From the NCBI RefSeq assembly GCF_003688895.1, contig NZ_REFV01000009.1, positions 62,001 to 126,000 of the forward strand: 64,000 nucleotides of DNA. The letters are read 5' to 3'. Source of the stretch: Dokdonia sinensis (GTDB lineage: Bacteria; Bacteroidota; Bacteroidia; Flavobacteriales; Flavobacteriaceae). Position numbers and translations under genes: made by a program. Positions 1,981 through 60,930 of the stretch are shown one piece after another. The notes under the pieces are model-generated. The model did not search any database. It was not told the DNA's origin and saw only the letters and a list, made by a program, of their open reading frames with translations. Position 1 is the stretch's first letter. The number at the start of each line of letters is the position of its first letter.

Positions 1981-3081
1981 ATATTTGACTGCTCTTGCAA
2001 TCGTACTTTCAATCGTCGTCGCATTCGAAACCACGACTGTTTCAAAATGCTTTCTCGCTTCCTTTGCTGTGGTTTCTCCTATGCAAATGGCTACTGCCCT
2101 TCGGCTCCGCTGAGGGCTCGATTTATCCTGAACCCTGAGCGTAGTCGAAGGGTGGTTCGCTTTCGCGAAAGCGGAAACCCCACTCGGACTAAAAAATAAG
2201 ATTCCATCAAATTCCTGCTCAAATCTTTGTTCGTTGAGATGAGTTTCATAAACCACTACTTCGTTACAAATAATTCGAGCTTCTTTTAAAATATCTGGTA
2301 ATTCATCCCTTCGTTGCTTTCCACAGAAATAGGTGAATTGTTCATTTTTAAGGTTTTCTATAATAAACGTAGCAAGTTCTTCTCCATTTCGAGCTGTTTT
2401 TGCCACATTTAGACCACTTTCAACTAAAAGCGTTGAAGTCTTTTCTCCCACGCAATAAAAATTTGCATTCTCAATTCTCAATCCAGAATTCAGAATTGCT
2501 CTGGCTCCGTTTTGACTTGTGATAATCACACTATCAACAAGAGCTGAGAATTTAAACTCCAATGGCGCAATTGTAATCGCATCATATTCCACAAAACTCA
2601 CTTCTGCGTTGAGAAGTAACTCTCGCTGATTGAGTTTGAGTTTTTTTGTGGAAAGTAACCTCACCCCAGCCCTCTCCTTTTGAGGAGAGGGAGTTTTATC
2701 GGCAACTAAAATCAATTTTGGAATTACTTTAAATAGCGTTTTCCTTTCTGAAATATCATTGTAAATTCTTTGCGTGTCATTAATAGCCGTTTCGTTGGAA
2801 TAACGTAAAACTTTATACCCCAAGGCCTGTAAATGAGCATCTCTTAGTTCGTCTTTTTCTTTTTGATAAGGGTCATTGTGATATTTACCGTCTACTTCAA
2901 TAATCAATTTGAGCTCGTATGAGAAAAAGTCAACAATATAATCTTTAATAGGATGCTGACGGCGGAATTTTATACCTTCAAATTTACGATTGCGCAACAA
3001 ATCCCAGAGGTGTTTTTCTGCCTCTGTTTGCTCCTGTCTTAAAGCGCGAGCTGCTCTCATTCTAAATTCCCTTTCTTTCAT
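1963..3081 (-). CDS. hemD: DUF559 endonuclease-like domain fused in frame to uroporphyrinogen-III synthase
   Basis: One open frame holds two unrelated parts. About the first 120 residues are DUF559, a Vsr/restriction-endonuclease-like fold: RRQHPIKDYIVDFFS, then LIIEVDGKYH and the LGYKVLRYSN strand. From about residue 147 (LLSTKKLKLNQRELLLNAEV) it is HemD, which closes hydroxymethylbilane to uroporphyrinogen III; IITSQNGARAIL, YFCGKQRRDELPD and FFSPSGVSAF match that fold. The joint is encoded by a hairpin repeat (TPSPQKERAGVR). That repeat contains a GTG (2662-2664) which could start a free-standing HemD of about 233 residues. An 18-residue insert (PSTTLRVQDKSSPQRSRR) comes from another hairpin, next to the palindrome-encoded AFAKA. 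The C-terminal LATGY and stop come from the S23 cassette repeat. I chose ATG 3079-3081; a GTG at 3094-3096 is also possible. Confidence 0.85.
   Translation of the reverse strand: MKEREFRMRAARALRQEQTEAEKHLWDLLRNRKFEGIKFRRQHPIKDYIVDFFSYELKLIIEVDGKYHNDPYQKEKDELRDAHLQALGYKVLRYSNETAINDTQRIYNDISERKTLFKVIPKLILVADKTPSPQKERAGVRLLSTKKLKLNQRELLLNAEVSFVEYDAITIAPLEFKFSALVDSVIITSQNGARAILNSGLRIENANFYCVGEKTSTLLVESGLNVAKTARNGEELATFIIENLKNEQFTYFCGKQRRDELPDILKEARIICNEVVVYETHLNEQRFEQEFDGILFFSPSGVSAFAKANHPSTTLRVQDKSSPQRSRRAVAICIGETTAKEARKHFETVVVSNATTIESTIARAVKYLATGY
2097..2152. repeat. Imperfect hairpin inserted inside hemD
   Basis: Arms CCCTTCGGCTCCGCTGAGGG (2097-2116) and CCCTGAGCGTAGTCGAAGGG (2133-2152) pair at 17 of 20 positions around a 16-base loop. 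Sequences of this CGACTACGCTCAGGG type recur between genes in many Bacteroidota genomes (recalled, not checked). Here it lies within coding DNA without breaking the frame and abuts a copy of the 14-bp palindrome at 2159-2172. Confidence 0.75.
2159..2172. repeat. Palindrome copy (perfect), in hemD
   Basis: GCTTTCGCGAAAGC with GGA on its + strand right. On the minus strand it encodes SAFAKA in HemD. Confidence 0.95.
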
Positions 3082-3131
3082 TCTCAATACTTTCACTCCC
3101 TTCTCCGGCGAGAGAAGGGCCGGGGATGAGG
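2659..3131. mobile_element. DUF559 cassette bounded by inverted hairpin repeats
   Basis: The left end reads CCTCACCCCAGCCCTCTCC followed by a perfect 9-bp hairpin (2670-2678 with 2683-2691). The right end, read on the minus strand, gives CCTCATCCCCGGCCCTTCTC and also contains a hairpin (3098-3105 with 3112-3119). The two ends therefore form terminal inverted repeats with nested hairpins around the DUF559 reading frame. The right end stops about 12 bases from the hemC stop codon; the left end is translated into the joint with HemD. Mobility is inferred: structure and context suggest a non-transposase element that carries an endonuclease-like protein. Confidence 0.65.
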
Positions 3132-3142
3132 GGATAGCCCTG

Positions 3143-5306: not shown

Positions 5307-5320
5307 CTTTTAGAGCATTG

Positions 5321-5328
5321 CAAAAATA
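5321..5328 (-). promoter_or_regulatory. Candidate -7 box of the hemA operon
   Basis: On the minus strand the octamer is TATTTTTG, an exact fit to the Bacteroidota -7 element TANNTTTG, ending about 14 bases before the hemA ATG. I see no good -33 TTG at the usual distance, so this rests on the -7 match and position only. Confidence 0.45.
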
Positions 5329-5405
5329 TCTAGCTAACACTTAAAAAAATAACGCTAGCGGCACGATTTATATCGCGAGATGCAATATATCACGATATTA
5401 CTTCC

Positions 5406-6481: not shown

Positions 6482-6495
6482 GCTTTCGCGAAAGC
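6482..6495. repeat. Palindrome copy (perfect), intergenic before hemH
   Basis: GCTTTCGCGAAAGC followed by GTAA; 111 bases before the hemH ATG. Confidence 0.95.
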
Positions 6496-9045: not shown

Positions 9046-9052
9046 GGGTTAC

Positions 9053-9066
9053 GCTTTCGCGAAAGC
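9053..9066. repeat. Palindrome copy (perfect), intergenic after the MATE gene
   Basis: TAC-GCTTTCGCGAAAGC-GGA, seven bases after the MATE stop codon. Confidence 0.95.
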
Positions 9067-16318: not shown

Positions 16319-17134
16319 TTATCCCAAATACAACGCCTCGATCTTATTGCGCACAGCGTCCTTATAGGTTTCCTTTATAGAGAGCGCCATCCCTGCCACT
16401 GCTAGTCTTGAGCCGTTTATGCGACCTTCTAGTACGTGTGGGTCTAGATTTACGATGTAGCTCTCGTTTATTCGTTCAAACTGCTCTGGGAGTTGTTCCT
16501 GCAGTTTGCGCAATGAAGTTTTGAGGTAATATTCTTTTCCAGTTACTGTCTGGAACCATAGGTAGTTTGCGCGTAGGTTTTCGGTTTCCTTTTTTGGGTT
16601 GTTCTCGTATTTTGATTTTACGGTAAAGAAAGCAATGTCATCGTACAATATAGGTACTCTTGAGATATCCTGATAGCCTTTTTCCTTGAGCTCGTCCAGA
16701 TAGTCTGTAAGGCCCATCACTCCTTTTTTTTCTGTTAGGATTGTGGGGTTTTTTTGCTTTCGCGAAAGCGTGGTATGTATCGCCCTCACCACCTCTTCTA
16801 TATTAAGTTTAGGCTTCGTCTTTACAATAAACTGCTCGTGATTGGTTTGTAAACCTTTAAAAAATGTAGCCGTGTCCGCATACTTAGTCACATAAATAAA
16901 CGGGATATGCATTTTCTCCGAAAGGATTTTTCCCAAATCTAAACCCGACCGTTCTCCTCTAAGATGAACGTCTAGAAGAACAACATCAGGTTTTGTCTTT
17001 TCAATTTCGATCAAGGCCTGAGCCACACTAGGCGTATAATCTGCTACAGAAAAATGTTCTTTGAGCAAGGCTTGAGCGAGTCTGTCATAAAGGACTGCCT
17101 CGTCTTCTACTATGAGGATGTGCGCGTGTTGCAT
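16319..17134 (-). CDS. LytTR-family response regulator
   Basis: A 271-residue two-component regulator. The receiver domain has the acidic pair in LIVEDEAVL, the phospho-acceptor Asp in VVLLDVHLRGE (about residue 55) and the lysine in FIYVTKYAD. The C-terminal LytTR DNA-binding domain runs from about residue 165 (IAFFTVKSKYENN ... YLKTSLRKLQEQLPEQFERINESYIVNL). A palindrome copy at 16756-16769 encodes TLSRKQ in the linker between the domains. It starts two bases after the sensor kinase gene's stop, its likely partner. Confidence 0.93.
   Translation of the reverse strand: MQHAHILIVEDEAVLYDRLAQALLKEHFSVADYTPSVAQALIEIEKTKPDVVLLDVHLRGERSGLDLGKILSEKMHIPFIYVTKYADTATFFKGLQTNHEQFIVKTKPKLNIEEVVRAIHTTLSRKQKNPTILTEKKGVMGLTDYLDELKEKGYQDISRVPILYDDIAFFTVKSKYENNPKKETENLRANYLWFQTVTGKEYYLKTSLRKLQEQLPEQFERINESYIVNLDPHVLEGRINGSRLAVAGMALSIKETYKDAVRNKIEALYLG
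16756..16769. repeat. Palindrome copy (perfect), in the LytTR regulator
   Basis: Read on the minus strand as TLSRKQ in the inter-domain linker; + strand right flank GTGG. Confidence 0.95.
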
Positions 17135-21079: not shown

Positions 21080-21655
21080 TTAAATCCATACGATAAGGTT
21101 TACCTCCTGAATCTCACCCGAAACTCCTAATGGTATAGCTTTAAGCTTAATGGAGTATTTCCCTTTATCTAATTTACCAGGATATGCACCATTTGTAAGC
21201 GGGTCGCCTTGTGCATAAGTGAGCAAAGAAATGATGTCAAAGGTTTCCACAGGCTCCAGCATTTCTCCAGGAAAGAACGGCATAGGTTGACGTTTTACCG
21301 AGCGTATCAATTTTCCGTTGCGGTAGAGTTCTGTTACAAATTCAAAAAGTACGATACCGCGCTCCTGCTCATCACGAGGAATCCCAAACCCTTCAAAATT
21401 AAAATTGATAGGATATTTCCCCATTTTAAAATCTTTAAAGAGGTCAACCGCATTGCCATTCTTGAGCTTGATTTCTAGCGACGATTTGTTTTTAATAAGC
21501 ATTTTCCCGTTTACAGATGCTTTTTTCTGCAACACGTTTACTGGTTTTACAGTTTCTATTCTTGGTTTAACCATATTGGTATTTGGTTTAAGTTGCGCTT
21601 TCGCGAAAGCGGATACTAAAATCATTGCTGTAAGTACTATTGTTTTTTTCATCAT
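21080..21655 (-). CDS. Secreted hypothetical protein; palindrome forms its signal-cleavage site
   Basis: A 191-residue exported protein. The signal peptide (TIVLTAMILVSAFAKAQLK) ends in AFAKA, encoded exactly by the GCTTTCGCGAAAGC palindrome at 21597-21610, which gives an A-K-A signal-peptidase I site. The mature part is beta-rich (INFNFEGFGIPRDEQERGIVLFEFV ... KGKYSIKLKAIPLG) and is not a family I recognise. It is gene five of a six-gene leftward operon of exported proteins. Confidence 0.7.
   Translation of the reverse strand: MMKKTIVLTAMILVSAFAKAQLKPNTNMVKPRIETVKPVNVLQKKASVNGKMLIKNKSSLEIKLKNGNAVDLFKDFKMGKYPINFNFEGFGIPRDEQERGIVLFEFVTELYRNGKLIRSVKRQPMPFFPGEMLEPVETFDIISLLTYAQGDPLTNGAYPGKLDKGKYSIKLKAIPLGVSGEIQEVNLIVWI
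21597..21610. repeat. Palindrome copy (perfect), at a signal-peptidase site
   Basis: Minus-strand reading SAFAKA at the end of the signal peptide of the 21080-21655 protein; + strand right flank GGA. Confidence 0.95.
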
Positions 21656-27611: not shown

Positions 27612-30603
27612 GTTTTTTACGCTTTTGCGAAAGCATAATTATAAAGATAAGTATTGCCATCGCTACCCCAGCTAGAAGATACCAGCCCCACGCTACGGGT
27701 ACCTCTAAAGGTCTGGCATCACCACTAAGCGTAAATCCAGCCCAATAATACGGATGCCTTAGGGCTGAATCTTTTGTGCTGGATAAATAATCCAGTTTTG
27801 CTTGTTGTAGTGCCTTTGCTTTAGGCATCCCATTTATAAGATGTTTATAGAAGGCGCTCATAATAGTTTTAGTGGTTTTGTCGCTTACTTGCCAGAGTGT
27901 TGTGATAGTGCTTTGGGTGCCAGCGTATGTAAAGGCTCTAGATAAACTTTGAAGGTCTTCCCCTTCTTTTTTTACACCGATTCCAGTATTACAAGCACTT
28001 AAAACAACAAGGTTTGCAGGGATACTTAAGGCATAGATTTCGTTAAAATTGAGACGCTTATCGTGAGTAAAAAGTATAGAAGAGTTGTTATCTTCCTTGT
28101 CGCTGGCTATTGCGTGAGCTGCCATATGGATTATATCATAATTAGAAGAATTTTCAATAAACTTTTGTTTTGAAGCCTTATCTGCAAGGTATAGATCGCC
28201 TTTAGTGATTTCGGCAATTTGCAAACTCTCTTCCCGAGCAAAAGGAAGTTCGAAAAGCCCATTTCTCTTGAGCTCTAAGATATCCTGGTCATCTTTAAAA
28301 CTTTCCTGATACTCCGGTGAGAAAATTGCAGTACCTCTCTCAAGGCTTGAGTTTCCCTCTAGTTGCGATTGTAGTAGGGGTAAGGAAAAAGCAACCGAGG
28401 TATTGTATTTTTCTAGAAGGAATGCTCCAGTTTTATCTATTAGGGCATCAAAGGGGACAAACGTTAATTCGTTTTTTGTAATAAAAATTAACCTTGATTT
28501 ATTTTTGTCGTTTAGAATGTTTGAGAATGGTTCAATAAGTAAATGATATAAATCTTTTGCGGCACTATCTGCATTTACGTTTCTGCTCAAAATTGCATTG
28601 CGGTGCTCAGAAATTTTATCGCTTAGTTGCTTTCTACTTCCGATTGATTTAAAAACAATTTGATTATTAGTAATTGCAACTGCAAATGCGTCATCCGTAC
28701 CTAATACAAATCTTATGTAAACCTCACTCTCATTTATCTTCTCTTGAAACTTGCTAATATCCCATTTGTCTAAATGCATTGGGTTTTTAGTTATTGTTTC
28801 TCTCTGAATAATATTTGAAATACTATCAACAGAGCTTCGTATAGAACTGGTAGCGTATCCTGATATTTTAACTTGAGAAGCGAGCACATCATTTTTAATA
28901 TTTATAATATCGAGGAGAACGGCAAAGTCACCTCCAATTTGTTCATTCTTTTTTCTTTTGGCATTAAAGGTTTTGAGAAGATGTTGTGACAGGTTATTTT
29001 CTATTAGAGAAAAAATATTTTCCTTGGGTTTAATATTGTCAATATCCTCTAGTAAGTATTGATTAATCTGAGTACTAATTTCTTCTAGCTTTGGGTTGTA
29101 AATTTCTTGATTATAAAAGGCATTAAACTTTTGTGCAGTAATTATGGCTAAATCTGTTTTTCTATTCAAATGAAAATCCTTGCCACTCGCTTCAAATAGT
29201 CTTTTGTAACTAGCTACGAGGTCAATTAGAACGCTCAACGTTTCTACAGAATTCTCTGGATTAAAGTCGGCTATTGTTAATCTGTCTTTGCCTACTTCTT
29301 CACTTTTAATAAGCTTATTTAAAGCCTTACTTAAATGTTCTTCATAAGACTTATTGTCGCCAGTTATCAGGGCGCTTTCTGCTTTTAAATTTTCCACTCT
29401 TGCTTGAAATGGTTGAAAATAGTTAGCCCCCAGAATTTGGATATCTTCAAAATCTAGGGCCATATTTTTGTAATCTTGATTCTCAAAATGATTGCGACCC
29501 ATCATAAATTTTGTAACACTATAATTATGTATGCAATCATTACCATTCATTTCAGAAGCATAGATAGGCAGGTGTTTGAGATTTTCTTCGAGCTCCCAAA
29601 CCATTTCCATTTTAAGAACGGCAAGGTAAAATGGCTCTAAAAAGTAGCAGTCCGATGTTTTCATCTGGTACCGGATTTCTTTCATTTCTTCAAATAATTC
29701 TTTAGACGCTGCTACATCTCCCTTATGAGCATAATATCTTAATTGGGGTAGAAGCGTATATAGAACAGCTTGAAGTCGAGCATTAATTTTGTCATCAGGT
29801 AGATGGCCAGCAACAAGATTATCTGAGGTTAGCCATTGTGATTTATTGTCATTTAAGATATCAAGGGTTTCCTTAGCACTTATGAAGTCACCGTACTGTA
29901 TATATTCATTTACAAGATTCCCTAACTTATGAATCATAGCTCCAGGGTCACTATTAGCATTATTGAGTCCGAATGACACCCCTTGCTTATAATAATCTAG
30001 CGCTTTATCAGTAATGCCAAGGTCACCATAGGAAGAACCCAGAAAGTTATATAAGTCAGAAACTGTGGTAGAATCTATAGGTTTATTTTTAAACGCTGTT
30101 TCAATACCTCTGGAAGCATAAAATGCAGATTTATAGTATTCTCTAAAGTGATTTTTGAGATAGGTAAGATCAGTTAGCACAGAGACGATGTTGGTGCCTT
30201 TGGCATTTTGAGATTCAAGAATTTGTAAGAGTTCCTGTGCCACAGTAACAGAAAAATCCAGACCTTTAATTTCACTACCTGCAACGTAATAATTACCTGT
30301 TGCATAAGTTAGAAACTCAAGATCTGTAGTGTTACTCTGTAGTAGATGCCTGTCGTTCCAAACAGAATCTAAGAATTCCACCCCTTTTTCTATTTCATTA
30401 TTTTGTACAGCCTTCATACCTTTTGCGGCCCAAAATCTTTGCCTGTGGAGATTCTTATTAATTTTGATGGTGTTGATGGCTTTATCAAAATCGTTTGCTT
30501 GGAAAATCAGAGAGTCTATGGAGCGTGAGATTTGATCCTGACTTTGAGCCATCAGAAAAAGGGGGAAGAAAATAAACACAAGGCAAAATCGAAATATCTT
30601 CAT
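27589..30603 (-). CDS. Membrane-anchored TPR-CHAT cysteine protease
   Basis: A 1004-residue protein with a signal peptide (FCLVFIFFPLFLMAQ), a long helical TPR region (to about residue 640), a CHAT (caspase-HetF-associated) peptidase domain and a C-terminal membrane segment (about 973-990) followed by KRKK. The catalytic dyad appears intact: His in IIHMAAHA (about 830) and Cys in VVLSACNTG (about 871). Signal peptide plus tail anchor place TPR and protease in the periplasm. Its gene end overlaps that of the anti-sigma-like protein, whose TPR is also periplasmic. CHAT proteases are known in caspase-like signalling and as Csx29 of type III-E CRISPR; no CRISPR is present here. A degenerate palindrome (27621-27634) encodes LSQKR at the membrane exit. 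Confidence 0.9.
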   Translation of the reverse strand: MKIFRFCLVFIFFPLFLMAQSQDQISRSIDSLIFQANDFDKAINTIKINKNLHRQRFWAAKGMKAVQNNEIEKGVEFLDSVWNDRHLLQSNTTDLEFLTYATGNYYVAGSEIKGLDFSVTVAQELLQILESQNAKGTNIVSVLTDLTYLKNHFREYYKSAFYASRGIETAFKNKPIDSTTVSDLYNFLGSSYGDLGITDKALDYYKQGVSFGLNNANSDPGAMIHKLGNLVNEYIQYGDFISAKETLDILNDNKSQWLTSDNLVAGHLPDDKINARLQAVLYTLLPQLRYYAHKGDVAASKELFEEMKEIRYQMKTSDCYFLEPFYLAVLKMEMVWELEENLKHLPIYASEMNGNDCIHNYSVTKFMMGRNHFENQDYKNMALDFEDIQILGANYFQPFQARVENLKAESALITGDNKSYEEHLSKALNKLIKSEEVGKDRLTIADFNPENSVETLSVLIDLVASYKRLFEASGKDFHLNRKTDLAIITAQKFNAFYNQEIYNPKLEEISTQINQYLLEDIDNIKPKENIFSLIENNLSQHLLKTFNAKRKKNEQIGGDFAVLLDIINIKNDVLASQVKISGYATSSIRSSVDSISNIIQRETITKNPMHLDKWDISKFQEKINESEVYIRFVLGTDDAFAVAITNNQIVFKSIGSRKQLSDKISEHRNAILSRNVNADSAAKDLYHLLIEPFSNILNDKNKSRLIFITKNELTFVPFDALIDKTGAFLLEKYNTSVAFSLPLLQSQLEGNSSLERGTAIFSPEYQESFKDDQDILELKRNGLFELPFAREESLQIAEITKGDLYLADKASKQKFIENSSNYDIIHMAAHAIASDKEDNNSSILFTHDKRLNFNEIYALSIPANLVVLSACNTGIGVKKEGEDLQSLSRAFTYAGTQSTITTLWQVSDKTTKTIMSAFYKHLINGMPKAKALQQAKLDYLSSTKDSALRHPYYWAGFTLSGDARPLEVPVAWGWYLLAGVAMAILIFIIMLSQKRKKLTLTHQL
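27621..27634. repeat. Palindrome copy (one mismatch), in the CHAT protease
   Basis: GCTTTTGCGAAAGC. Minus-strand reading LSQKR at the cytoplasmic end of the tail anchor. Confidence 0.8.
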
Positions 30604-31341: not shown

Positions 31342-33252
31342 CTAACTCAAATTTTGGGTCTGAAAACGAATACGGAGCACCTCTTGTAAATCCCTTAACG
31401 GTTTAAAGCAGCGCTTGAGTTTGAGCTTTTCGGATTTTGATAAATCAGATAGATTGATAAAGCGACCACTATTGTCATTTTTTAACCCTTGCTTTACGCG
31501 AAATTTTAATAACGCCTTAAACGCATAAGCACAACTTTCATAAAGCTCTTTATTCTCGGGCTCTAGTTGTGACAATCTTTCAAAACGCTGTGCGGTATTA
31601 TTTACATCTCTTATGTGATGATATAACGCTAATACGCGAGCTCCAGATATAAGCGGTGCCATCGCTCTGTTTTTAATGTCAAATTCATCTTTATGCTCCC
31701 CATCAGATTCCACTAAAAAATTACGGAAGAAACTCACCGGCGGCGGATTTTTAAGTGCATCCTTTGCCATAAATCTAAAGAAAACAGAGGAAGTTGTAAG
31801 CTGACTATATATATGAGTCGTAAGCTCATCTAATAAAAGATTAGAACCATACACAGGACGATAATCAAAGAAAATCCCAGAAAGCAACATACTCTGTGGC
31901 GTAGGATTCATTATCCAACTGCTAAATTGTACTTGCCACTCTTCTAACGACAGACAATATAGCGGATTGCTACCCATCATATCTGCAGGACAATAAGCGT
32001 ATCCTATTTTGTGTAACCGTTTATTCATCCTATTTGCAAGGCGGATAAAGTACGATTTAGTAGCCTCACTCTCATCATCTGGCATATTTTCATATAAGAG
32101 TGCATTATCTTGATCTGTATAAAGCAACTGTTCATTGCGACCCTGGCTACCTAGGGCAAGCCAAACAAAATCTACAGGTGGATCACTTTCCATCTTACGT
32201 AACGAAAGCTCCATCGTGCGGTGCAGTAACGCGTCTTTAAGCTCAGAAAATATATTGAGAATATGAGATAGAGGTAAGTTCTGGTCTAGGTAGCGTTGTA
32301 ATAATACCATCGCCTTTTGCCAGGCCGCACGTAGGATTTTAGTTTTTGGAGCGCGTTTTATTTCTTTAATCAATTCTGCAGGACTGTTACCAAAGGCGAC
32401 TACAATATCGTGTTTACTAAGCACTCCTATCACTTTACTCTCAGAAGTGCCATCTTCTGTAATAATGAGGTGACTTATTCCATTTTTGAGTAGGATTAAT
32501 TGCGCTTGCCCCACGGTTACATCTGGTGGAGCACAAATTACAGGTTGCGCCATGATTTCTTGCACGGCCGTTCCTTCTCGCAAGATGTCATTTGCCACCG
32601 CATTGCGCAATTCTCGATTGGTAAGTACACCTAGTGGTTTCTTATCATTGCACACGACAAGACATCCTATTTTATGTTCCTGCATTAGTTTTGCTCCTTC
32701 TTTTACTAAATTTTCAGGAGAGCAAGAAATAATTTTTGTGCTGTATTTTGCTTTTTCTATGCCCAGTAAATCTGTATTGCGATCGGGCTCATAGGTGTTC
32801 AGCAAGTCACCGCTATGCTGCAGGGTATATGGGTCTTTTATATTTGATGCATAAATAGCAATGAGGTAGTTTGAGATGGCTTTGTTCGCTTTCGCGAAAG
32901 CGGAAAAATCCCCCATAGGCAGCGTGTACAAAATTGTTTCCTCATTTGCCGTGGCCGTTGTGCGGTACGTGTTACCTGAAGTCACCTTTAGACCAAAGAG
33001 GTCACCCTCATCACAGATATCAACCACTTTAATGATATCGCCCGAAGGCCTAGTAATCTTAACGGCACCTTGCTGAACAATATAAAAATGGTCTTGATAA
33101 CTCTGATCGCGCTCAAAGACAATCTGGTCTTTGTCCAGATACACTACCTTAGCTTTGGTACAAATTGTTATAAGGTCATCCTTAGCCATAAAACTAAACG
33201 GAGGAAACTGCTTTAAGAAATCATAAATACGCCTGGCGATGGTGTTTTGCAT
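31342..33252 (-). CDS. cNMP-binding/CBS/DUF294 nucleotidyltransferase-like protein
   Basis: A 636-residue cytoplasmic protein. It has an N-terminal cyclic-nucleotide-binding fold (about residues 15-130, with DQSYQDHFYIVQQGAVKITRP split around the family's jelly roll) and two CBS domains (about 165-290: LMQEHKIGCLVVCNDKKPLGVLTNREL; LLKNGISHLIITED). Then comes a DUF294 putative nucleotidyltransferase with the GSQGR motif (WLALGSQGRNEQLLYTDQDNALL), and DUF294_C. It resembles GlnD-like regulators. The palindrome at 32888-32901 encodes SAFAKANKA in the first domain. The DnaQ gene follows directly, implying joint action. Confidence 0.9.
   Translation of the reverse strand: MQNTIARRIYDFLKQFPPFSFMAKDDLITICTKAKVVYLDKDQIVFERDQSYQDHFYIVQQGAVKITRPSGDIIKVVDICDEGDLFGLKVTSGNTYRTTATANEETILYTLPMGDFSAFAKANKAISNYLIAIYASNIKDPYTLQHSGDLLNTYEPDRNTDLLGIEKAKYSTKIISCSPENLVKEGAKLMQEHKIGCLVVCNDKKPLGVLTNRELRNAVANDILREGTAVQEIMAQPVICAPPDVTVGQAQLILLKNGISHLIITEDGTSESKVIGVLSKHDIVVAFGNSPAELIKEIKRAPKTKILRAAWQKAMVLLQRYLDQNLPLSHILNIFSELKDALLHRTMELSLRKMESDPPVDFVWLALGSQGRNEQLLYTDQDNALLYENMPDDESEATKSYFIRLANRMNKRLHKIGYAYCPADMMGSNPLYCLSLEEWQVQFSSWIMNPTPQSMLLSGIFFDYRPVYGSNLLLDELTTHIYSQLTTSSVFFRFMAKDALKNPPPVSFFRNFLVESDGEHKDEFDIKNRAMAPLISGARVLALYHHIRDVNNTAQRFERLSQLEPENKELYESCAYAFKALLKFRVKQGLKNDNSGRFINLSDLSKSEKLKLKRCFKPLRDLQEVLRIRFQTQNLS
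32888..32901. repeat. Palindrome copy (perfect), in the cNMP/CBS protein
   Basis: Minus-strand reading SAFAKA; + strand right flank GGA. Confidence 0.95.
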
Positions 33253-33453: not shown

Positions 33454-34233
33454 ATGAAGAAAAATAAATTAAATGTTGCCCTCATACAGGCAGATCTCAT
33501 TTGGGAAGATGCTGTAAAAAATAGAGCCTATTTTGATAAATTATTGTCAGCTGTTCCGTCAGAAACTGACATTGTTGTTCTCCCCGAGATGTTTACCACG
33601 GGCTTCTCGATGAATCCCTCACCTCTCGCCGAAACAATGGATGGAGCAACCGTACGATGGTTAAAGAAAAATGCGGAGCGGTCAGATATTGCAATATGCG
33701 GGAGCATTATCATTCAAGAAAATGACAAATTTTACAACCGTTTTCTATTTGTCCAACCCAGTGGAAAAGTAACAAGTTATGACAAACGTCACACTTTTAA
33801 TATGGCCGGTGAAGGTAAAAAATACGCAGCTGGAAAAAAACGAGTTTACATCAGTTATCTTGGGTGGAAAATCTTCCCACAAATATGCTACGACCTAAGG
33901 TTTCCTGTATTCTCGAGAAACACAACAGACTATGACCTGATCATCTATGTAGCAAACTGGCCCAAAACCAGAATCGCTGCTTGGGATACGCTTTTAAAGT
34001 CGCGAGCTATTGAAAACATGAGCTATAGCATAGGAGTAAATCGTGTGGGAACAGATGGCAATGACCTAGAATATATAGGCCACTCTGGAGTTTATAATGT
34101 TTTGGGTGAGGAGTGCGCTTTCGCGAAAGCGGAAGAAAAACTAATCACAGCCACGCTTTCTAAATCTCACATTGCCGAGACGAGAAAGAAACTTCCGTTT
34201 CTAGAAGACAAAGATCAATTTCAACTCTTTTAA
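33454..34233 (+). CDS. Nitrilase-superfamily omega-amidase (YafV-like)
   Basis: A 259-residue carbon-nitrogen hydrolase. The Glu-Lys-Cys catalytic set is present: Glu45 in VVLPEMFTTGF, Lys111 in YDKRHTFNMAGE, Cys145 in FPQICYDLRFPVF. YafV/omega-amidase removes ammonia from alpha-ketoglutaramate or its methionine-salvage analogue, after the aminotransferase at 9204-10346. The palindrome at 34117-34130 encodes CAFAKAEE near the C terminus, in an exposed loop position by homology. The stop overlaps the convergent lipoprotein gene by four bases. Confidence 0.93.
   Translation: MKKNKLNVALIQADLIWEDAVKNRAYFDKLLSAVPSETDIVVLPEMFTTGFSMNPSPLAETMDGATVRWLKKNAERSDIAICGSIIIQENDKFYNRFLFVQPSGKVTSYDKRHTFNMAGEGKKYAAGKKRVYISYLGWKIFPQICYDLRFPVFSRNTTDYDLIIYVANWPKTRIAAWDTLLKSRAIENMSYSIGVNRVGTDGNDLEYIGHSGVYNVLGEECAFAKAEEKLITATLSKSHIAETRKKLPFLEDKDQFQLF
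34117..34130. repeat. Palindrome copy (perfect), in the omega-amidase
   Basis: Plus-strand reading CAFAKAEE; right flank GGA even though the gene runs the other way from most GGA-type coding copies. Confidence 0.95.
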
Positions 34234-36578: not shown

Positions 36579-36623
36579 CAGATTATTTTTTAAATTGCTC
36601 AACTTTAAAGCAGTTCACACTCC

Positions 36624-37577: not shown

Positions 37578-37591
37578 GCTTTCGCGAAAGC
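37578..37591. repeat. Palindrome copy (perfect), glyS leader
   Basis: TTAC-GCTTTCGCGAAAGC-GTAA, a symmetric copy between the glyS promoter-like box and ATG. Confidence 0.95.
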
Positions 37592-43837: not shown

Positions 43838-46800
43838 TTAAAAGAACGCCTTTAACTGAACATTCCCCGTATGTATTGTACTTGAGTTCTCACTCTTCCT
43901 GCCAAAATACGATACATTTAAATCAAGAAACTTCGTTAGTCTTTTCTGCGCAATAAGGTTCCACGTAAAATTTGTTCCTGGTTGTAGGCCTTCTAAAATT
44001 TGATAAGCTACGGGAGAAAATGGACTTCCCTCAAAAGTGTTGTCTATATACTTCGCTTCTCCAGTTAACGATAACTTCTCTGCATCTGCAAAGGCAAAAG
44101 CGATGCCAAGATTATTTTGTTGCAACTCCTCTAGTTCCCCAATCCTATTCTCTTTGTTCTTAAACTCGTAAAAAGCCGTGATTCTGGACTGCTTCCCAAA
44201 GAGATAAGAAATCTTAGGATTTACTCCATAAGTGTCGAGCTTATAGTTACGAGAAACAAAATTTTCAGCAAAGCTTTCATTCGTTCCCAGCTCGTTCTGA
44301 ACATTAAACAGCCAACTCTCCTTAATCTTATGCAAGAAATTGAGTTGATGACTGGTCAGATCATTCTCTTGTAACCCTGTAGAAAGTAGGTTTTTTGCTT
44401 GGGTCGAAACATAGGTATATGAAGTTGTATATCGTTGTTTTCCGCGATTGAAGAAAAGCGTATTTCTAAAATTTATGGACGCGCCTATCTCATCTTCATC
44501 GTCATTAAAAGGATTAATACTAAAGGATTCTCCATCTCGCAACGTACGTTTATCCAAAATATAACTCGTCTGATTATAAAACAGCGAAAGAAATTTTTTC
44601 AACCCCTTTTGTCCAGACCATTGTTGCGGGTTTAAAGTCAACTGCTGGCTCAACCTGTTTTGGTGCGTTTTTACAAAAATCTGATTGGGCAGTAGCACTC
44701 TTATGAAATCTGCCTCATCCTGAAACTGGGCAATTTCAAACTCCTCCAGTTGTTGCACACCATCATCATTATAATCATTCCACGTATGCGTGCCCTGACC
44801 TTCATCTACCGCGACAAATGTAAATTCCTGTTGGGGTTGGGTACCGCTATTGGTTTCAAAAACCGTGTTCCAGCGTATGATATCGTTTGCAAACCGTTGA
44901 TCGTAAAGCAATCTAGAATTGAGCGAATTCTCATTCGGTCGATTGTCTTCAAATTTTAATGTTCTATAATTAGCAAACAGCGAAAGGCTCGTTTTTTCAT
45001 TTTTGATGAGTTGTGACTTGAGGAAATACGTATTGGACGATGTCACGGGTACGATGCGGTTGTTGCGTATACTATCGCTTTCGCGAAAGCGGACCCCCAC
45101 CTCCACAAACACCTTAGTACTGTCACCCACACCCACAAAACCTTCATACTCCTCAAATCGCTGACTATCTGGCGTCAAAGAATCATTGCTCTTTATGAGC
45201 CGTTCATTGTCCTCCGCCTGAAATTTCCCGCCTACCCAAGCCTTTTTCAACCCATATATCACCGAACTGTAGATGCGAGAAAAATCGGAACGCGCATTAG
45301 TAGCGGTACTTTTTAGGGTGCTTCCCAGCAGTTGTGCCCGGATTTTTTCAGTATTGAGGTTTGCATTTATGGTATGGCGCTTACCGTTATAAAAATCTTG
45401 AAAATCTAAATTTTGATACTGGTAAACCGCATTTCCCTTACGATGATTAAAGCGCAGTCCAGAAGTCAAGAAACTCTGGTCGCCCAGCAACGTTCCATTT
45501 GCGTTAGAGAGTGAAGTGTCTAGATTCCAGTCCCGGTTGAACTCAACATTGTAAAGCCCTTCTATATTTACAAATTCCTCCTGTATGTAATCGTAGTTTG
45601 TAAAACCCGTTAGCCTGCTTGTGCTGTCTTGCGTAAAAATGCGCTGCTCTGCTTCTAGGTGTCCAGCAAAACCATCATTATCATTATCGTCAAGGTCTGA
45701 AAAAAGGTTAACGTCGTTTTTACTTCCTGAGGCTTCAAATTTTATATTCGTTTTTTCATTTGGTGTGTATTTCCCATTCACAACGGCAAGTTGCAGTAGG
45801 GTAGGAGCAAAGAGTTGTACTTGTGGGGCATAGTTTCCTTGAGGAACGCCATTTACAGGAGCCACATACTCAAACGTGCGTTGCAAGGTCGTGGTCGTAC
45901 TAATGATGTAGTCTCCCTGATTATCACCTACGAGACTAAAACGTACAGTAAACAGTTCCTCATCTGGGTCCGTGCTAAACTCAAAGACCTCTACGCCATT
46001 TACTATGGTCTTGCGATATAATACTTTGTTTTCAGAAAAAGTGTCTTCTATGGCACTTGGAGCGATTGCTTCGTCCATATTATCTCCCGCGAGTTGAAGC
46101 ACATCTACTTGTTCTTCGCTTAAATTTTGTTGCAATGGCTGATTCTTAAGGTCGGATTCAGAATAAACGTGAGCCCCTATTTGAAATTTATCGGTTTCCG
46201 TAAAACTTCCTCCCCCGTAGGCCACAAAACGAGTATACCTACGCTCAGAAAATTGAAATTCTACCTGTATACGCATTTCGCTCGTGATGGGGTAGGTGGA
46301 GTTAAACCGTATTTCGCCCGCATTATAATCGATGATATAATCTTCGGTTTCTCCACGTTCTAGCAGGATGCCGTTTACGTACACACGCTCGCTTCCTGAG
46401 ATGACCAGTACAAAAAGTTCGCCGTTAGGTCCTGTAAGCTTATAAGGTCCCTGATTTCCTTCCTGACCCACAAAATTACTTTGGGTAAACACACCGCGCA
46501 CTAACGCTCCAGTAGCAAAGAGATTCGTCTTGCCGTTCTCAGAATGATTGAGATCTCCAGAAAGGGAAAGGCCTTGGATTTTCTTTGTAAAACTCCCGAA
46601 GTATGAATCATTATTCACCAGATTGATATCTCCCGCACGTATGTTCCAGTTGTCCGAAAATAGCTCGATAAAGATTTGGTCAAATTCATCCAGATTTTGA
46701 GAATAGCCACCCTCTTGTTGCGGGATGTTGGAGTCCTGCAACGACGCTCTGAGTGTGACTTTATCATTCAGCTTTCCGCTTATCTGGAGATCGAGTTCAG

Positions 46801-48199: not shown

Positions 48200-49183
48200 A
48201 TGATCAAAAAAGCCCTCATCCTATTAGTTGCAGGAGTCCTGATGACTTCCTGCGTATCTTCAAAAGTGTACAAAGACCTAGAAGGGAAGTACAACAGGCT
48301 CCGCAAGGAAAATAGAACCTTGGAAACAGACCTTTCGGTAGCGCAAAAGGAACTTAAAAAATTGAGAAGTGACTATAGCGCTACAGAGGAGGCTCTAGAG
48401 GCTGCAATGCAACGGTATGATGAGCGTAATAGGGAGTACGCTTCCGCGAAAGCGAACTTAGAAAACTTACAAGCTTCCTACGATGCATTAGAAAAGAACA
48501 GTAGCGCCAGTATCGCCGAAAACTCCAAGAAAAACCGCGAACTCCTCGCCGAACTGGAACAAAAACAAAAAGATCTCGCCGAAAAAACAGCGGCCCTAGA
48601 TACCGAGCGTCGCAGACTAGAGAGCCTACAAAATGACCTCGCAGACCGTTCTGCCAGAATAGACGAACTCGAAGGATTGATCGCAGCCAAAGACGCAAAA
48701 ATGCGCAACCTTAAAGACGCTATCTCAAAAGCCCTAACAGACTTTGAAGGAAAGGGCCTCACCGTCGAGCAACGCAATGGTAAGGTTTATGTTTCTTTAG
48801 AAAACAAGCTTTTATTTGACTCTGGAAGTTGGAACGTAGGAGCAAATGGAAAGAAAGCCGTAAAACAATTAGGAAGTGTCCTCGCCCAAAATCCAGAAAT
48901 CGCTGTTCTCATCGAAGGACATACAGATGACGTGCCTTACGGCGGTGGTGGCAACCTACAAGGCAACTGGGATCTTTCGGCGAAGCGTGCTACTTCTATT
49001 GTAAATATCTTACGAGAAAATCCGTCTATAGACCCAAAAAACCTTACCGCTGCCGGTCGTGGAGAATATGCACCTGTTGCTCCTAATGATACCCCGGCAA
49101 ACAAAGCAAAAAATAGAAGAATTGAAGTAATCTTAACACCTAAGCTAGATGAGGTAACCGCCTTGCTGGAGGATGTAGATTAG
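48200..49183 (+). CDS. OmpA-family lipoprotein with coiled coil
   Basis: A 327-residue outer-membrane lipoprotein: lipobox (LVAGVLMTSCVSS), a long coiled coil (about residues 30-170: LRKENRTLETDLSVAQKELKKL ...), and a C-terminal OmpA domain (LLFDSGSWNVGANGKKAV; VLIEGHTDDVPYGGG; LSAKRATSIVNIL; ANKAKNRRIEVILTP) that grips peptidoglycan. Coding sequence at 48440-48453 is a one-mismatch palindrome (GCTTCCGCGAAAGC) giving ASAKA. The ATG at 48200 is used; the frame also opens with TTG two codons earlier. Confidence 0.93.
   Translation: MIKKALILLVAGVLMTSCVSSKVYKDLEGKYNRLRKENRTLETDLSVAQKELKKLRSDYSATEEALEAAMQRYDERNREYASAKANLENLQASYDALEKNSSASIAENSKKNRELLAELEQKQKDLAEKTAALDTERRRLESLQNDLADRSARIDELEGLIAAKDAKMRNLKDAISKALTDFEGKGLTVEQRNGKVYVSLENKLLFDSGSWNVGANGKKAVKQLGSVLAQNPEIAVLIEGHTDDVPYGGGGNLQGNWDLSAKRATSIVNILRENPSIDPKNLTAAGRGEYAPVAPNDTPANKAKNRRIEVILTPKLDEVTALLEDVD
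48440..48453. repeat. Palindrome copy (one mismatch), in the OmpA lipoprotein
   Basis: GCTTCCGCGAAAGC. Plus-strand reading ASAKA in the coiled coil. Confidence 0.75.
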
Positions 49184-50367: not shown

Positions 50368-50381
50368 ACTTTCGCGAAAGC
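50368..50381. repeat. Palindrome copy (one mismatch), between convergent genes
   Basis: ACTTTCGCGAAAGC between the aldo-keto reductase and acyl-CoA dehydrogenase ends. Confidence 0.8.
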
Positions 50382-51767: not shown

Positions 51768-52525
51768 AGTAATTAAGGATTGATTTCCTTAAAGATAGCA
51801 CAATCCCGATGTTGGATTTTAAAAAGAAACGTTAATTAAGCGATATAAAATTTAATGAGGATAGAATGATAAAGGTTCCTAGGGGATCTCTTATTCTAGC
51901 CTGAAACTATGTTATGATTCAGTATGTGGTCCGGGACAAGTGATACGATACATTTATTAGCGTTTACTCGATTTTTATACTTAGAAATAGAAAGAAATTA
52001 TACTAATGGATACAGATTTTTGCGCCTGAAAAATCTTTAGATAGTTCCTTTTTACGCTTTCGCGAAAGCGGAATCCCAATACACACAAACTGAGGCATTA
52101 TTATTAAAATCCCTAGCGTAAACTTGCCTTGCTGCGTGTTGCGTGATCAGATAGGTAGCCTTAACCGCTTATCGCGGTTCAAGAGTATTTTCAGAAGAGC
52201 CGTAGTGGTCAAAGAAAATAAGAATAGAGCACATTTTTAAATATAAATGTTGATGTATTGCGTTTCGCCAAACAAATTTTAAAACTAAAGTCAAACCTGG
52301 GAATCAACATGAGTCGTACGGCGATGTGCTTTATTGAAAGTAAGAAGCTGAAAAGTCAAAATACGTAATGCGTTATAAATTAGCGTTTTGTTAAAATGCT
52401 ATAAGAAAATTCTTTCAAAAAAGGAGTGTATGTTCCCTGTTTTCCTCTGAATAACGTTCACTTTGTCCGAATTTTACACTTGGATTTAGGACATAAGGGT
52501 TTTTTTTGTCGACGAAATACAAGTT
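51768..52525. other. 758-bp intergenic region without a recognised gene
   Basis: No ORF of note and no tRNA-like or known RNA fold recognised by eye. It holds one palindrome copy (52056-52069) and a small perfect hairpin (AACCGC-TTATC-GCGGTT, 52163-52179). The last ~120 bases are AT-rich and likely contain the promoter of the AraC-type gene at 52526. It is the longest gene-free stretch in the window and could hide a small RNA. Confidence 0.6.
52056..52069. repeat. Palindrome copy (perfect), in the long intergenic gap
   Basis: TAC-GCTTTCGCGAAAGC-GGAA, in the 758-bp gene-free region. Confidence 0.95.
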
Positions 52526-56260: not shown

Positions 56261-56274
56261 GCTTTCGCGAAAGC
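56261..56274. repeat. Palindrome copy (perfect), between adhesin and radA
   Basis: TTAC-GCTTTCGCGAAAGC-ATAA, downstream of the terminator of the lectin adhesin. Confidence 0.95.
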
Positions 56275-57768: not shown

Positions 57769-58071
57769 TTCATCTAGTTTATGAGCAATGTGTGTAGGGA
57801 AACACGGTAATGGTTTTAAAACCAAAAAATTATAAAAACGTTATATCTGTTGCTTCTTTATTATGCCCGAGAAGTAAAAGTATTCAATTGGGGGATTGGA
57901 TACAAGAGAAAGAGGACTTGCGTACGAACTCCTCTTTTTTGATTTGTGATTTTTACGCTTTCGCGAAAGCGGACATCAAAATAATTACACATAACTTACA
58001 CGAGTAATGCTAATGATAATAGTACAGTCACTTCAAGTATTTTTTTTTGAAATGAATTATATTTAACGCAG
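57769..58071. other. 303-bp intergenic region with one palindrome copy
   Basis: It separates radA from the divergent sensor kinase and holds a perfect palindrome at 57957-57970. A 65-codon frame (57810-58007) runs through it and reads YAFAKAD at the palindrome, but has no other sign of being a gene. AT-rich sequence just before 58072 should hold the kinase promoter. Confidence 0.6.
57957..57970. repeat. Palindrome copy (perfect), between radA and the propeller kinase
   Basis: TTAC-GCTTTCGCGAAAGC-GGAC, 102 bases before the kinase ATG. Confidence 0.95.
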
Positions 58072-60930
58072 ATGAAAATTAGGTTGCTATTTTTTCTTGT
58101 GTTTTTATATTGTTGTCCCGCAATTGCACAGCAATATCTTTTTAAGCAATACACAAAAGAGGAAGGTCTTTCTAATAATGAGGTCTACGATCTTATTCAA
58201 GCAAGAGATGGAATTATCTGGGCGGCAACCTATGGAGGCGTCAGTGCCTTTGACGGCTCCTCGTTTAAAAACTACACAACAGAGGATGGACTCGCCTCAG
58301 ATTTTGCTTTTTCTGTTTTTGAGGACTCTAAGGGGCGCATCTGGGTAGGCACGCTGAGTAAAGGGATCAGTATCATTAAAGATGGAAAGGTTACATCTCC
58401 TAGTGACATCGATTATTTTAATTATGGAACGGTTACGGAGTTCTTTGAGCACGATGATGGAAGCATTTACATTTTTGCAAATCGGGGTGTCATCAAATAT
58501 CAAGATGGGATGTTCATCCCGATTATCGAAGCAACCGAAATTATTCAGGACGGAATCTACGTTCAAGATGTAGTTCTTCTCAACGATCACACCTTTGCAA
58601 TGGCTTCTACCCGTAGGGGTGTTATATTATTTAATACCCTTACGTGTGAGTTGGATTATATAAATGAAGATAGTCACAAGATTAATAATCTTTGTTTTAG
58701 CGTGCATCTAGACGATGACGGTGCTTTATGGATAGGGAGCTATGGAGCATTGTATAAACTAAAAGATGATAAGAAAGAAACTTATGTGCCAGATTGGAAT
58801 GACTTCAACAGCAATAAAATCTGGCGAATTCTAGAAGATAATGGTCGCTTGTACCTAGCAACAGAGGGTAATGGTTTACTCCTTTTTGACAAAAAAACAG
58901 AACAGTTTAAAATCTTAGATGACCAGAGAGGTTTTCCTAATAAATATGCCTATTCTCTTATTAAGGATAGAGAGGATAATTTCTGGTTTGCCACGTATCG
59001 CGGTGGGCTGGTAAAGTTTAGGGATACATCTTTTACTTTTTATGATGCAAGTCAGGGACTTCCAGAGGGAGCTGTAAAAAGCGTCGTAAGCTGGAATGAA
59101 GACTGGGCTGTAAGCACCGAAAATGGAGTCGCAATTTTTGAAGAAGGTCGGGTCGTAGATACTTTAATGAAAGGTATCTCTACAGGTATGCTTAATGTTT
59201 CTAATTCAAAAGAATTGCTGGTTTCAGGAAATGACACTTACGCATTCCAAGATCGTTATTCAAAAGAGTTTGTAGTAGAGGGAGCACATAGTTATGTAAT
59301 TAAAAATGATGCGAAACTTGTTATCTCTAGTTCATCGCAAATCCATTTTATGACAGACGGTAGCAGTGTAACGATTCCCGCCCGAAAAGCTGCAGCCATT
59401 GTACCTATAGGAGACCGCTATCTAAGCGCATCACAATTTGGTATGTTCCAGTTGCATAACAATGTAGAAGACAGTATTCCTGGGTTGCATCAAAAATACC
59501 ACGAGGCCTTTTATACGTTAGATATACTAAATGCAAATACCGCAGTAACTGCAAATAATAAAAATTTGTATTTCATCACGCTAGAAAACAGCAACTTTAA
59601 AAATAGAATCTTTCCGCTAGATGCGCTAAATATTCGAGATGATGTAACCGCTTTACGTGTAGCCGGAGACGACCTATGGTTGGCTTCAAAAAAGGGCCTC
59701 AGTAAACTTGCGGTGAGTCCCTTGCTTCAAAAAGACAGCATAGTGATGCAGCATTACACAAATACCTTTGGATTTCCTACCCAAGCCATATTGGAAAATC
59801 AAATAGCTGTCAGTAAAGACGGTACAGTAGCTTTTGCCACAAAAGAAGGTGTCGGATTTTTTTCTGAAGATAATTTTGTGAGCAATACACAACCGCCACA
59901 ACTTAAATTAAAGAACATACTTCTTTTTGCCGAAAAACTAGATGAAGCAACCTTCTTAAAAGGTGATAAGCTGGTACTACCTTACACAAAAAACTACCTC
60001 ACTTTTAACATGCAAGCCGTCACGTTTACCTCGCCAGAGACCGTGAACTACAGCTATAGGTTGCGAGGCTTACGAGATAGTGATACTTGGTCCAGTCCTT
60101 CCCAAAAAAAGGATATCGTTTTTTCCTACCTTCCTCCAGGGGATTATGTCTTTGAGTTTACAGCAGATAATGGTAATGGCGTCTGGCAACCAGACGCATT
60201 TACATATCCGTTTACAATTTCGGTTCCATTCTGGCGTACCATTTGGTTTTGGTCTATTTTAGGATTTACAGCAGTGGCACTGGGGTTTATTTTGCTTTCG
60301 CGAAAGAATCTCCTCGCAAGAAAACGTCAAGAACGAGTCACTCAGGACATCATAAACGCTCAAGAAGAAGAACGGTCTCGTGTTGCTAGAGAACTGCACG
60401 ATAGCGTAGGTCAAAAGCTAATGATGCTCACGCGTAAGGTGAAGTATCTCAAAAACCCAGAAGCCGAAGCTCTTGCGGGAAGCACTCTCAGTGAACTCAG
60501 GTCTATTTCTAGGGGCTTACACCCAGCTGTTCTGGAACGATTAGGATTCACAGCTGCCTTAGAAGCATTGCTTGAAGAGGTAGATGAACAAACAGATACC
60601 TTCATATCCTCAGAGATTGAAAACATAGATGCTTATGTCTCACAAAATGCTGGATTGCATATGTATCGTGTTTTTCAGGAACTACTATCTAATATGATAA
60701 AACACGCTCAGGCTCCTGCAGCTAGAGTTGAGGTTTCAAAAGAAGGACAGACCCTTCGGCTCTATTTAAAAGATAACGGTAAAGGATTTAACTATCATGA
60801 AAAACTAAAAACCACAAAGAGTCTCGGGATGAAGTCCATTTTAGAACGTTGTAAGATTATTAACGCAAGATTGGAGGTGAATTCTCAAATAGGGCAAGGG
60901 ACTACATATATTCTAATCGTCCCTATATAG
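58072..60930 (+). CDS. Beta-propeller sensor histidine kinase (HisKA_3 type)
   Basis: A 952-residue hybrid-style sensor: signal peptide (LLFFLVFLYCCPAIAQ), about twelve Reg_prop propeller strands in the first ~590 residues (IIWAATYGGVSAFDGSSFKNY; GRIWVGTLSKGISIIKDG), a Y_Y_Y domain (NYSYRLRGLRDSDTWSS ... PGDYVFEFTADNGNGVW), a membrane segment (about 728-748), then a HisKA_3 kinase with phospho-His in SRVARELHDSVGQKLMM (about 775) and ATPase box FQELLSNMIKHAQA. The palindrome variant at 60294-60307 encodes LSRKN exactly at the end of the membrane helix. The NarL-type regulator at 61020 is its likely partner. Confidence 0.94.
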   Translation: MKIRLLFFLVFLYCCPAIAQQYLFKQYTKEEGLSNNEVYDLIQARDGIIWAATYGGVSAFDGSSFKNYTTEDGLASDFAFSVFEDSKGRIWVGTLSKGISIIKDGKVTSPSDIDYFNYGTVTEFFEHDDGSIYIFANRGVIKYQDGMFIPIIEATEIIQDGIYVQDVVLLNDHTFAMASTRRGVILFNTLTCELDYINEDSHKINNLCFSVHLDDDGALWIGSYGALYKLKDDKKETYVPDWNDFNSNKIWRILEDNGRLYLATEGNGLLLFDKKTEQFKILDDQRGFPNKYAYSLIKDREDNFWFATYRGGLVKFRDTSFTFYDASQGLPEGAVKSVVSWNEDWAVSTENGVAIFEEGRVVDTLMKGISTGMLNVSNSKELLVSGNDTYAFQDRYSKEFVVEGAHSYVIKNDAKLVISSSSQIHFMTDGSSVTIPARKAAAIVPIGDRYLSASQFGMFQLHNNVEDSIPGLHQKYHEAFYTLDILNANTAVTANNKNLYFITLENSNFKNRIFPLDALNIRDDVTALRVAGDDLWLASKKGLSKLAVSPLLQKDSIVMQHYTNTFGFPTQAILENQIAVSKDGTVAFATKEGVGFFSEDNFVSNTQPPQLKLKNILLFAEKLDEATFLKGDKLVLPYTKNYLTFNMQAVTFTSPETVNYSYRLRGLRDSDTWSSPSQKKDIVFSYLPPGDYVFEFTADNGNGVWQPDAFTYPFTISVPFWRTIWFWSILGFTAVALGFILLSRKNLLARKRQERVTQDIINAQEEERSRVARELHDSVGQKLMMLTRKVKYLKNPEAEALAGSTLSELRSISRGLHPAVLERLGFTAALEALLEEVDEQTDTFISSEIENIDAYVSQNAGLHMYRVFQELLSNMIKHAQAPAARVEVSKEGQTLRLYLKDNGKGFNYHEKLKTTKSLGMKSILERCKIINARLEVNSQIGQGTTYILIVPI
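60294..60307. repeat. Palindrome copy (one mismatch), in the propeller kinase
   Basis: GCTTTCGCGAAAGA. Plus-strand reading LLSRKN right after the transmembrane helix. Confidence 0.8.

Follow-up and report, generated by a model that had tools for sequence, protein, structure and literature searches.

Why should one long, exact palindrome recur through the genes and gaps of a flavobacterial chromosome, and what might read it? The question is raised by a 64-kb stretch of Dokdonia sinensis DNA (64,000 nucleotides; hereafter the window), in which the original prediction counted 14 perfect and 4 one-mismatch copies of a 14-bp palindrome, all 18 of which are present where it placed them. Its estimate that such a motif would arise far less than once by chance agrees with 100 dinucleotide shuffles of the window, which gave a mean of 0.01 matches (maximum 1) with up to one mismatch allowed. 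The count over the whole genome and its relatives that it proposed gives 857 perfect copies in the genome's own 3,647,482 bases (3.65 Mb), where the reversed pattern (the motif read backwards) has none, and 369-905 copies in each of the 18 genomes of the window's genus (g1) that were searched, this one and 17 others. The motif is present in 199 exact, 37 one-mismatch and 56 two-mismatch copies in 864 kb of genus DNA, made up of the window, 400 kb of contig C1 and 20 samples of the relative G008; about 60 half-site-shuffled palindromes, counted on part of the 864 kb and then scaled, lead one to expect 0.0, 0.05 and 1.6. A palindromic 12-mer occurring at least 3 times, at least 400 bp apart, is found in 36 of 40 genus windows and in none of 80 loci of relatives (5-21 kb), whereas some non-palindromic 12-mer of that frequency is present in 46 of the 80 relatives' loci. 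An effect of codon usage or base composition, the outcome against which the prediction had set a shuffled-sequence test, is ruled out by the dinucleotide shuffles, the shuffled palindromes and the use of all three reading frames as well as gaps. The signal is thus chromosome-wide, and the suggested likeness in density to uptake or HIP-type motifs is supported. One-armed half-sites, G-poor arms of about 19 bp, even spacing, restriction to three genera and copies in phage contigs go beyond what had been predicted.

Anatomy of the site and its copies in the window

The palindrome consists of two half-sites, TTTCGCGAAAGCG, which overlap in opposite orientation and each of which carries a G-poor arm of about 19 bp. 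The core, TTTCGCGAAA, occurs at 258 sites in the 864 kb, 199 of them two-armed (77%), 59 one-armed (23%) and none armless. An arm begins with GC, continues with mostly G, then with a preference for T and A, and stays poor in G to about position +19. Symmetrised flanks of 104 sites in genome G000 have C at -1 in 88%, A at -2 in 51% and T at -3 in 79%, giving an extended consensus of TAC-GCTTTCGCGAAAGC-GTA; in the same genome C is scarce over some 20 bp on the strand 5' of the motif and approaches its background level by about 30 bp. The same flank bias is seen in G008 and in g11, and weakly in g210 (24 sites), g11 and g210 being the two other genera dense in the motif. Between +4 and +19, G content is 6.4% at two-armed sites, while one-armed sites have 8.3% on the intact side and 13.2% on the lost side, where the deficit is weaker yet present; between +23 and +32 it is 14-18%. 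Sites between ORFs show the effect, as do coding sites in the two commoner frames.

Extended leftward from GCGAAAGC on each strand, the sequence is nearly fixed (C in 469 of 490, then T in 463 of 469, T in 460 of 463 and T in 457 of 460), which makes the unit an oriented half-site TTTCGCGAAAGCG together with about 19 bp, the palindrome being two such units overlapped. The mini-hairpin GCGAAAGC within each half-site, which we take to be very stable, was rejected as an explanation because it does not account for the kept upstream TTTC. Complementarity between the two arms of one site shows no excess over an independent-position prediction, so each arm is seemingly read alone rather than as part of a longer hairpin. 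G is avoided over many successive positions of one strand, which is odd for a plain double-strand binder.

The copies in the window are as follows; a strand is assigned to the one-armed sites only.

2159..2172, two-armed site inside the DUF559-HemD ORF
6482..6495, two-armed site between ORFs
9053..9066, two-armed site between ORFs, with a stop codon 7 bp before
16756..16769, two-armed site inside a response-regulator ORF
21597..21610, two-armed site in a 191-aa ORF, 45 nt past the start codon
23552..23565, two-armed site in a 421-aa ORF, 42 nt past the start codon
26432..26445, two-armed site inside a 192-aa ORF (sigma-70 region 2 match, below cut-off)
27621..27634, degenerate copy, core C changed to T, GCTTTTGCGAAAGC
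32888..32901, two-armed site inside a cNMP-binding/CBS/DUF294 ORF
34117..34130, two-armed site inside a carbon-nitrogen hydrolase ORF
37578..37591, two-armed site; the glycine--tRNA ligase ORF begins 19 bp further on
45077..45090, two-armed site inside a 1140-aa ORF with no Pfam match
48440..48453, degenerate copy, core changed, GCTTCCGCGAAAGC
50368..50381, plus strand, one-armed site ACTTTCGCGAAAGC, right arm intact
52056..52069, two-armed site between divergent ORFs
56261..56274, two-armed site adjoining radA, in a doubtful 71-aa ORF
57957..57970, two-armed site adjoining radA, in a doubtful 66-aa ORF
60294..60307, minus strand, one-armed site, TCTTTCGCGAAAGC on that strand

The four one-mismatch copies are thus of two kinds, those at 50368 and 60294 being one-armed sites with the 10-bp core intact and those at 27621 and 48440 having the core itself changed. 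Eight of the 14 perfect copies lie in ORFs of at least 100 aa, two in small ORFs of doubtful coding status (66 and 71 aa), and four between ORFs, the ORFs being a mechanical longest-ORF choice made independently of any annotation; the earlier figure of about nine perfect copies in genes was a fair one. Two of the ORFs are unusual in themselves. That at 1963-3096 (minus strand) joins DUF559 (endonuclease-like, residues 14-117) to uroporphyrinogen-III synthase HemD (residues 174-366) in a single frame, and is either an unusual fusion or a case of a missed start; the 1140-aa ORF at 43838-47260 (minus strand) has a single NCBIfam match, weak and below cut-off.

Conservation, placement and spacing

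Sites in the radA region are kept between species to a degree that surrounding DNA is not. Between G006 and G008 (88% DNA identity) 20 of 20 are identical, when control 14-mers are identical in 33%; the figures are 19 of 21 (controls 31%) for G008 and G009 (88%), 18 of 20 (52%) for G006 and G009 (93%), 18 of 20 (8%) for G008 and G016 (79%), 15 of 17 (5%) for G006 and G016 (76%) and 12 of 14 (7%) for G009 and G016 (76%). Conservation falls against the distant G004 (about 73% identity), where from 5 of 10 to 8 of 12 are identical, and each pairing of a relative with the window offers 3 alignable sites, 1-2 of them identical. Over 220 kb of a three-species alignment, 42 of 47 alignable sites are identical in all. 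Five radA-region pairs yield 18 non-identical site alignments, among which sites recur between pairs; the counterpart is a one-armed site in 4 of the 18, and 14 are free of gaps within the 14 columns, which speaks against insertion as a unit.

Arms show no letter-by-letter conservation between species. Among polarised changes, G is lost in the arms at the usual rate (9 of 182, against 105 of 2034 outside) and gained less often (18 of about 2,240, against 108 of about 8,840 outside), and an unpolarised count shows no consistent deficit of changes to G in arms; taken together, these comparisons provide weak evidence that G may be selected against there. A reading of the arm composition as a mutation scar of single-strand exposure is unsupported, G losses being at the usual rate and G gains fewer.

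Placement is permissive. ORFs of 60 aa or longer hold 70 of 104 sites, 67 of which are in ORFs of roughly 100 aa upwards; the remaining 34 stand between ORFs, an enrichment in the inter-ORF DNA that makes up about 7.5% of the total (P 6e-14, on the mechanical longest-ORF set). Coding sites fall 41, 10 and 19 in the three frames, the one that reads Ala-Phe-Ala-Lys-Ala being favoured; 17 of 67 are within 150 nt of an ORF start (9.2 expected, P 0.007) and 8 of 67 within 150 nt of a stop. An intrinsic or other transcription terminator is rejected because most sites are in ORFs and the 3' arm is A/C-rich, with no T run, which bears out the earlier remark that the motif is not just a terminator. A mobile repeat of the REP or MITE type is likewise rejected, as there are no shared flanks, flank composition is at background past about 30 bp, differing sites in related species are for the most part free of gaps and about two thirds of sites lie in ORFs.

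The sites are remarkably even in their spacing. On contig C1, none of 99 gaps between two-armed sites is under 500 bp (10.8 expected) and 2 are under 1 kb (20.3 expected), with a coefficient of variation of 0.65; when one-armed sites are added, 400 kb of the same contig has 116 gaps with a mean of 3427 bp and a coefficient of variation of 0.58, 3 of them under 1 kb (29.4 expected) and 1 under 500 bp. Mean gaps in the window and in 80-100 kb of each of five relatives are 2.9-3.9 kb, with coefficients of variation of 0.48-0.57, and 20 samples of 20 kb taken round the chromosome of G008 (one contig) hold 1-7 sites each, with a variance of 2.6 against a mean of 4.75. The evenness was measured within the window's genus, and almost every stretch of about 3-4 kb of the genus DNA sampled holds a site. 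One-armed sites fall where two-armed ones are far apart: there are none in the 59 kb of two-armed gaps shorter than 3 kb, 5 in 155 kb of gaps of 3-6 kb, 11 in 118 kb of gaps of 6-9 kb and 10 in 63 kb of gaps above 9 kb. They are never closer than 1.2 kb to a two-armed site, when 42% of random places lie within 1 kb of one. Because they fill gaps, one-armed sites look like working substitutes, and coverage is seemingly the property under selection.

Distribution among genomes and in mobile DNA

Matches of any kind were found in 20 of the 59 relatives covered by the search that gave the genus counts, and at least one in 80 of 397 genomes of a Flavobacteriaceae sample, where the motif is dense only in g1 (857 and 903 copies), g11 (578, 664 and 609) and g210 (408), the next-highest counts being 19, 17 and 16. 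Sites of g11 have clear arms, those of g210 weak ones. A phylum sample of 395 genomes searched for the 13-mer TTTCGCGAAAGCG has a match in 76 and no further dense genome. RadA of g11 is 72% identical to that of the window, below several motif-less genera (up to 79%), so that the distribution is patchy, perhaps through transfer, separate gain or loss. The copies in G116 and G326 (g96) and in G091 (g71), 16, 19 and 17 in number, are above chance and may represent islands or the remnants of a lost system. A lone copy lies about 1.5 kb from radA in eight Flavobacterium-type loci (L053, L054, L059-L062, L065 and L067); these copies are armless, scoring -8.5 to -13.3 under an arm model built on the genus sites (median of those sites 7.9, 99% of random places below 3.7), and are probably a coding coincidence fixed by conservation of the protein.

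Clustered copies in eight low-count genomes led to 18 island stretches, most of them mutually homologous, L146 and L157 being the exceptions. L141-L145, L147, L149-L152, L155, L156 and L158 are homologous stretches across several Flavobacteriaceae genera, and the motif stands at common positions in them, for example as a pair 933 bp apart. The sole annotated island, L141, encodes among 10 proteins efflux pumps, P-type ATPases, a multicopper oxidase and an ArsP-type permease. Island sites score above 5 under the arm model in 20 of 36 cases, and the islands plausibly came from motif-bearing genera. The motif may thus tag DNA that has moved out of those genera, such as metal-efflux islands.

At least 120 stretches of IMG/VR matched; among the 133 matches listed most are chance-like and 9 score above 5. 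Ten phage records of 12-40 kb, reported out of 12 loci, hold 2-5 sites each and 37 in a total of 260 kb, a density that comes, as for the islands, from a biased sample, the sequences having been found through the motif. Eight of the 20 phage-contig proteins scanned have no PHROG; matches among the others are to a tape measure protein and an integrase (L235), a baseplate hub (L239), a head maturation protease (L252) and Mu-like transposition proteins (L275). L243 and L253 carry several spaced-out sites and no named phage gene among the proteins scanned.

Candidate readers and comparison with known systems

Proteins that might read the motif were surveyed in 32 genomes, 14 dense bearers (10 of g1, 3 of g11 and 1 of g210) and 18 others. 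The pilus or type II secretion-type ATPase PF00437 is over cut-off in 7, namely 4 of 10 g1, 1 of 3 g11, none of the one g210 and 2 non-bearers, which is evidence against type IV pili as a required machine. The original prediction took comF as a hint of DNA uptake; a ComF-like ORF does lie at 35898-36602, but it says little, and PF00437 is below cut-off in 6 of 10 g1. Its suggestion of a methylase is unsupported for the two families searched, the C5 methyltransferase PF00145 being over cut-off in 17 of 32 genomes and missing at that level from 6 of 10 g1, G281 and G230, and PF01555 over cut-off in 6 of 32 (G027 and G230 among them) and in none of the 10 g1. ParB has a single match in 9 of 10 g1, in each of the 4 remaining bearers and in 12 of the 18 non-dense genomes, and two in G011; a Noc-like second paralogue was not found in 9 of 10 g1 with the ParB profile. 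An AddB-like PDDEXK protein, named from its size and domain, occurs in all 32 genomes. Its tree of 30 rows, from which G027 and G281 were left out, groups g1 in one clade (100/100) and places G433 and G230 (one g11 and one g210) outside that clade on weakly supported branches, G433 being a long row. The tree lends no support to AddAB as the reader. A hunt for a reader by unusual similarity between genera, over a small part of each genome, met only housekeeping-type genes among the 10 annotated.

Without a dedicated reader it is difficult to account for an invariant core of 12-14 bp, arms and coverage-like spacing, all in three separated genera. We favour, at somewhat less than an even chance, a dimeric DNA-binding protein dedicated to the motif, to which the cell's own DNA must offer a site every 3-4 kb or so. 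The 14-mer would then be the visible centre of a site of about 52 bp for one symmetric protein, a dimer of which would bind the core and at least one arm; a bound site per 3-4 kb would matter to intracellular DNA, in packing, segregation or the marking of self, and selection would keep about one site per interval, with resident mobile DNA acquiring sites in turn. A role inside the cell is preferred because close pairs are scarce, the PF00437 ATPase is below cut-off in most bearers tested and sites occur in phages. Against such a binder, no candidate binding protein was found among the genes examined, ParB being single in 9 of 10 g1, and we know of no bacterial architectural protein that works through some 850 exact palindromes at even intervals. 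Uptake sequences, too, are reported to be strongly conserved, with a spacing that matches recombination tracts (PMC2397512), and to that extent these features count against the binder. The fuller proposal, that the chromosome and its resident phages are ruled into intervals of about 3-4 kb by a long exact two-armed palindrome with a putative protein reader, is offered as a tentative possibility that we think rather less probable than the binder as such.

The main rival, to which we give roughly one chance in four or a little better, is a DNA-uptake signal for self-recognition, in which a putative surface receptor would prefer the site and transformation and recombination would spread and even out the copies. 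The style is that of known uptake sequences, a long exact core with flanking tracts of unusual composition, such tracts being described for them (PMC7811141), as are overlapping inverted pairs for USS; strict conservation, with spacing matched to conversion length, is described for DUS (PMC2397512). The enrichment between ORFs and near protein N-termini and the rarity of insertions among interspecies differences fit as well. However, the motif is mostly palindromic, PF00437 is below cut-off in most bearers, and 1 of 116 gaps is under 500 bp when 23% of USS have a neighbour at most 100 bp away (PMC7811141); phage contigs and islands hold several sites each, where DUS distributions in mobile elements are atypical (PMC7371117). 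The literature match for "Dokdonia" with "natural transformation" is, by its title, on another subject. A Chi-like site, at which the AddAB helicase-nuclease would stop degrading and recombination would start, is unlikely. It would make sense of the one-strand composition of the arms, the usefulness of sites to phage DNA and the AddB-like protein in all genomes; RecA would load preferentially on a GT-rich strand such as that 5' of the motif, and the density of Chi resembles that of the motif. Yet 12-14 fixed base pairs are long for Chi, the AddB of one g11 and one g210 genome falls outside the genus clade, and there is no clear replichore bias in G008, whose origin was placed from the GC skew of samples alone: T-type one-armed sites (T at the lost position; 87 forward and 88 reverse, of which 81 and 19 are listed) split 51 to 36 between the two replichores in the forward set (P 0.13), with the 6 unlisted forward sites taken to lie after the last listed one. 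Between 0 and 790 kb, G008 has 20 plus and 19 minus one-armed sites, and 30 sampled ones lean the other way (right arm 5 plus and 13 minus, left 7 plus and 5 minus). Some other role in the cell, as sites for a topoisomerase or replication protein or as a defence licence that spares site-bearing DNA, seems to us no more probable than a Chi-like one; sites in phage contigs and islands and even coverage speak for it, and against it stands the want of anything direct, with no candidate gene in the small part searched. Least probable is a HIP1-like palindrome made and kept by a DNA methyltransferase and repair, a methyltransferase role having been proposed for HIP1 (PMC4390886). A highly iterated palindrome in genes and gaps is what it would produce, but a methyltransferase would not be expected to give rise to arms of about 19 bp, one-armed sites or even spacing, and neither family searched is consistently present in bearers.

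Long exact motifs as dense as this are rare, and DUS, USS and Chi each revealed a core process. The open-licence literature yielded no publication on the 14-mer itself, those with TTTCGCGAAA being on other subjects by title, and, again by title, no such signal in Bacteroidota. Should it prove an uptake signal, it would be to our knowledge the first for its phylum; should it be architectural, the densest sequence-coded lattice that we know of. If the fuller proposal of a ruled chromosome holds, three separated genera of one family would share a discrete sequence-coded architectural or self-marking lattice. The evenly spaced copies in the bearers, together with those in some phages, point to a putative protein for which the cell's own DNA must provide handles throughout its length, and the unusual architecture and very even coverage would offer a ready assay for a putative DNA-reading machine.

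Set beside known systems, the motif is like DUS of Neisseriaceae and USS of Pasteurellaceae in its hundreds to thousands of exact copies, permissive placement, flanking tracts, strong conservation and overlapping inverted pairs, and the genome-wide over-representation and positional conservation by which those are recognised are both found here; it differs in being mostly palindromic, with close pairs scarce, in occurring in phage contigs and islands and in Bacteroidota, and in the PF00437 ATPase being below cut-off in most bearers tested. Like cyanobacterial HIP1 (GCGATCGC), it is a palindrome repeated very many times, in gaps as in genes, and is patchy in its occurrence among relatives, but it is 14-20 bp long, with arms of about 19 bp, one-armed forms and even spacing, and has no consistent PF00145 or PF01555 methyltransferase. 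Like Chi (AddAB/RecBCD), it has a GT-rich strand beside it and is possibly useful to resident DNA; unlike Chi, it is palindromic, far longer and of no clear replication polarity. Its half-site spacing differs from that of parS and Noc sites. A likeness to parS, Noc sites, matS and archaeal SegB sites may nevertheless be drawn, by analogy, in the dimer-type palindrome, its occurrence also within genes and a long-range function; the difference is that there are some 850 evenly spaced copies here, not tens (SegB has 46 motif sites, PMC12284271). The precedents of similar copy number are uptake sequences, HIP1 and Chi.
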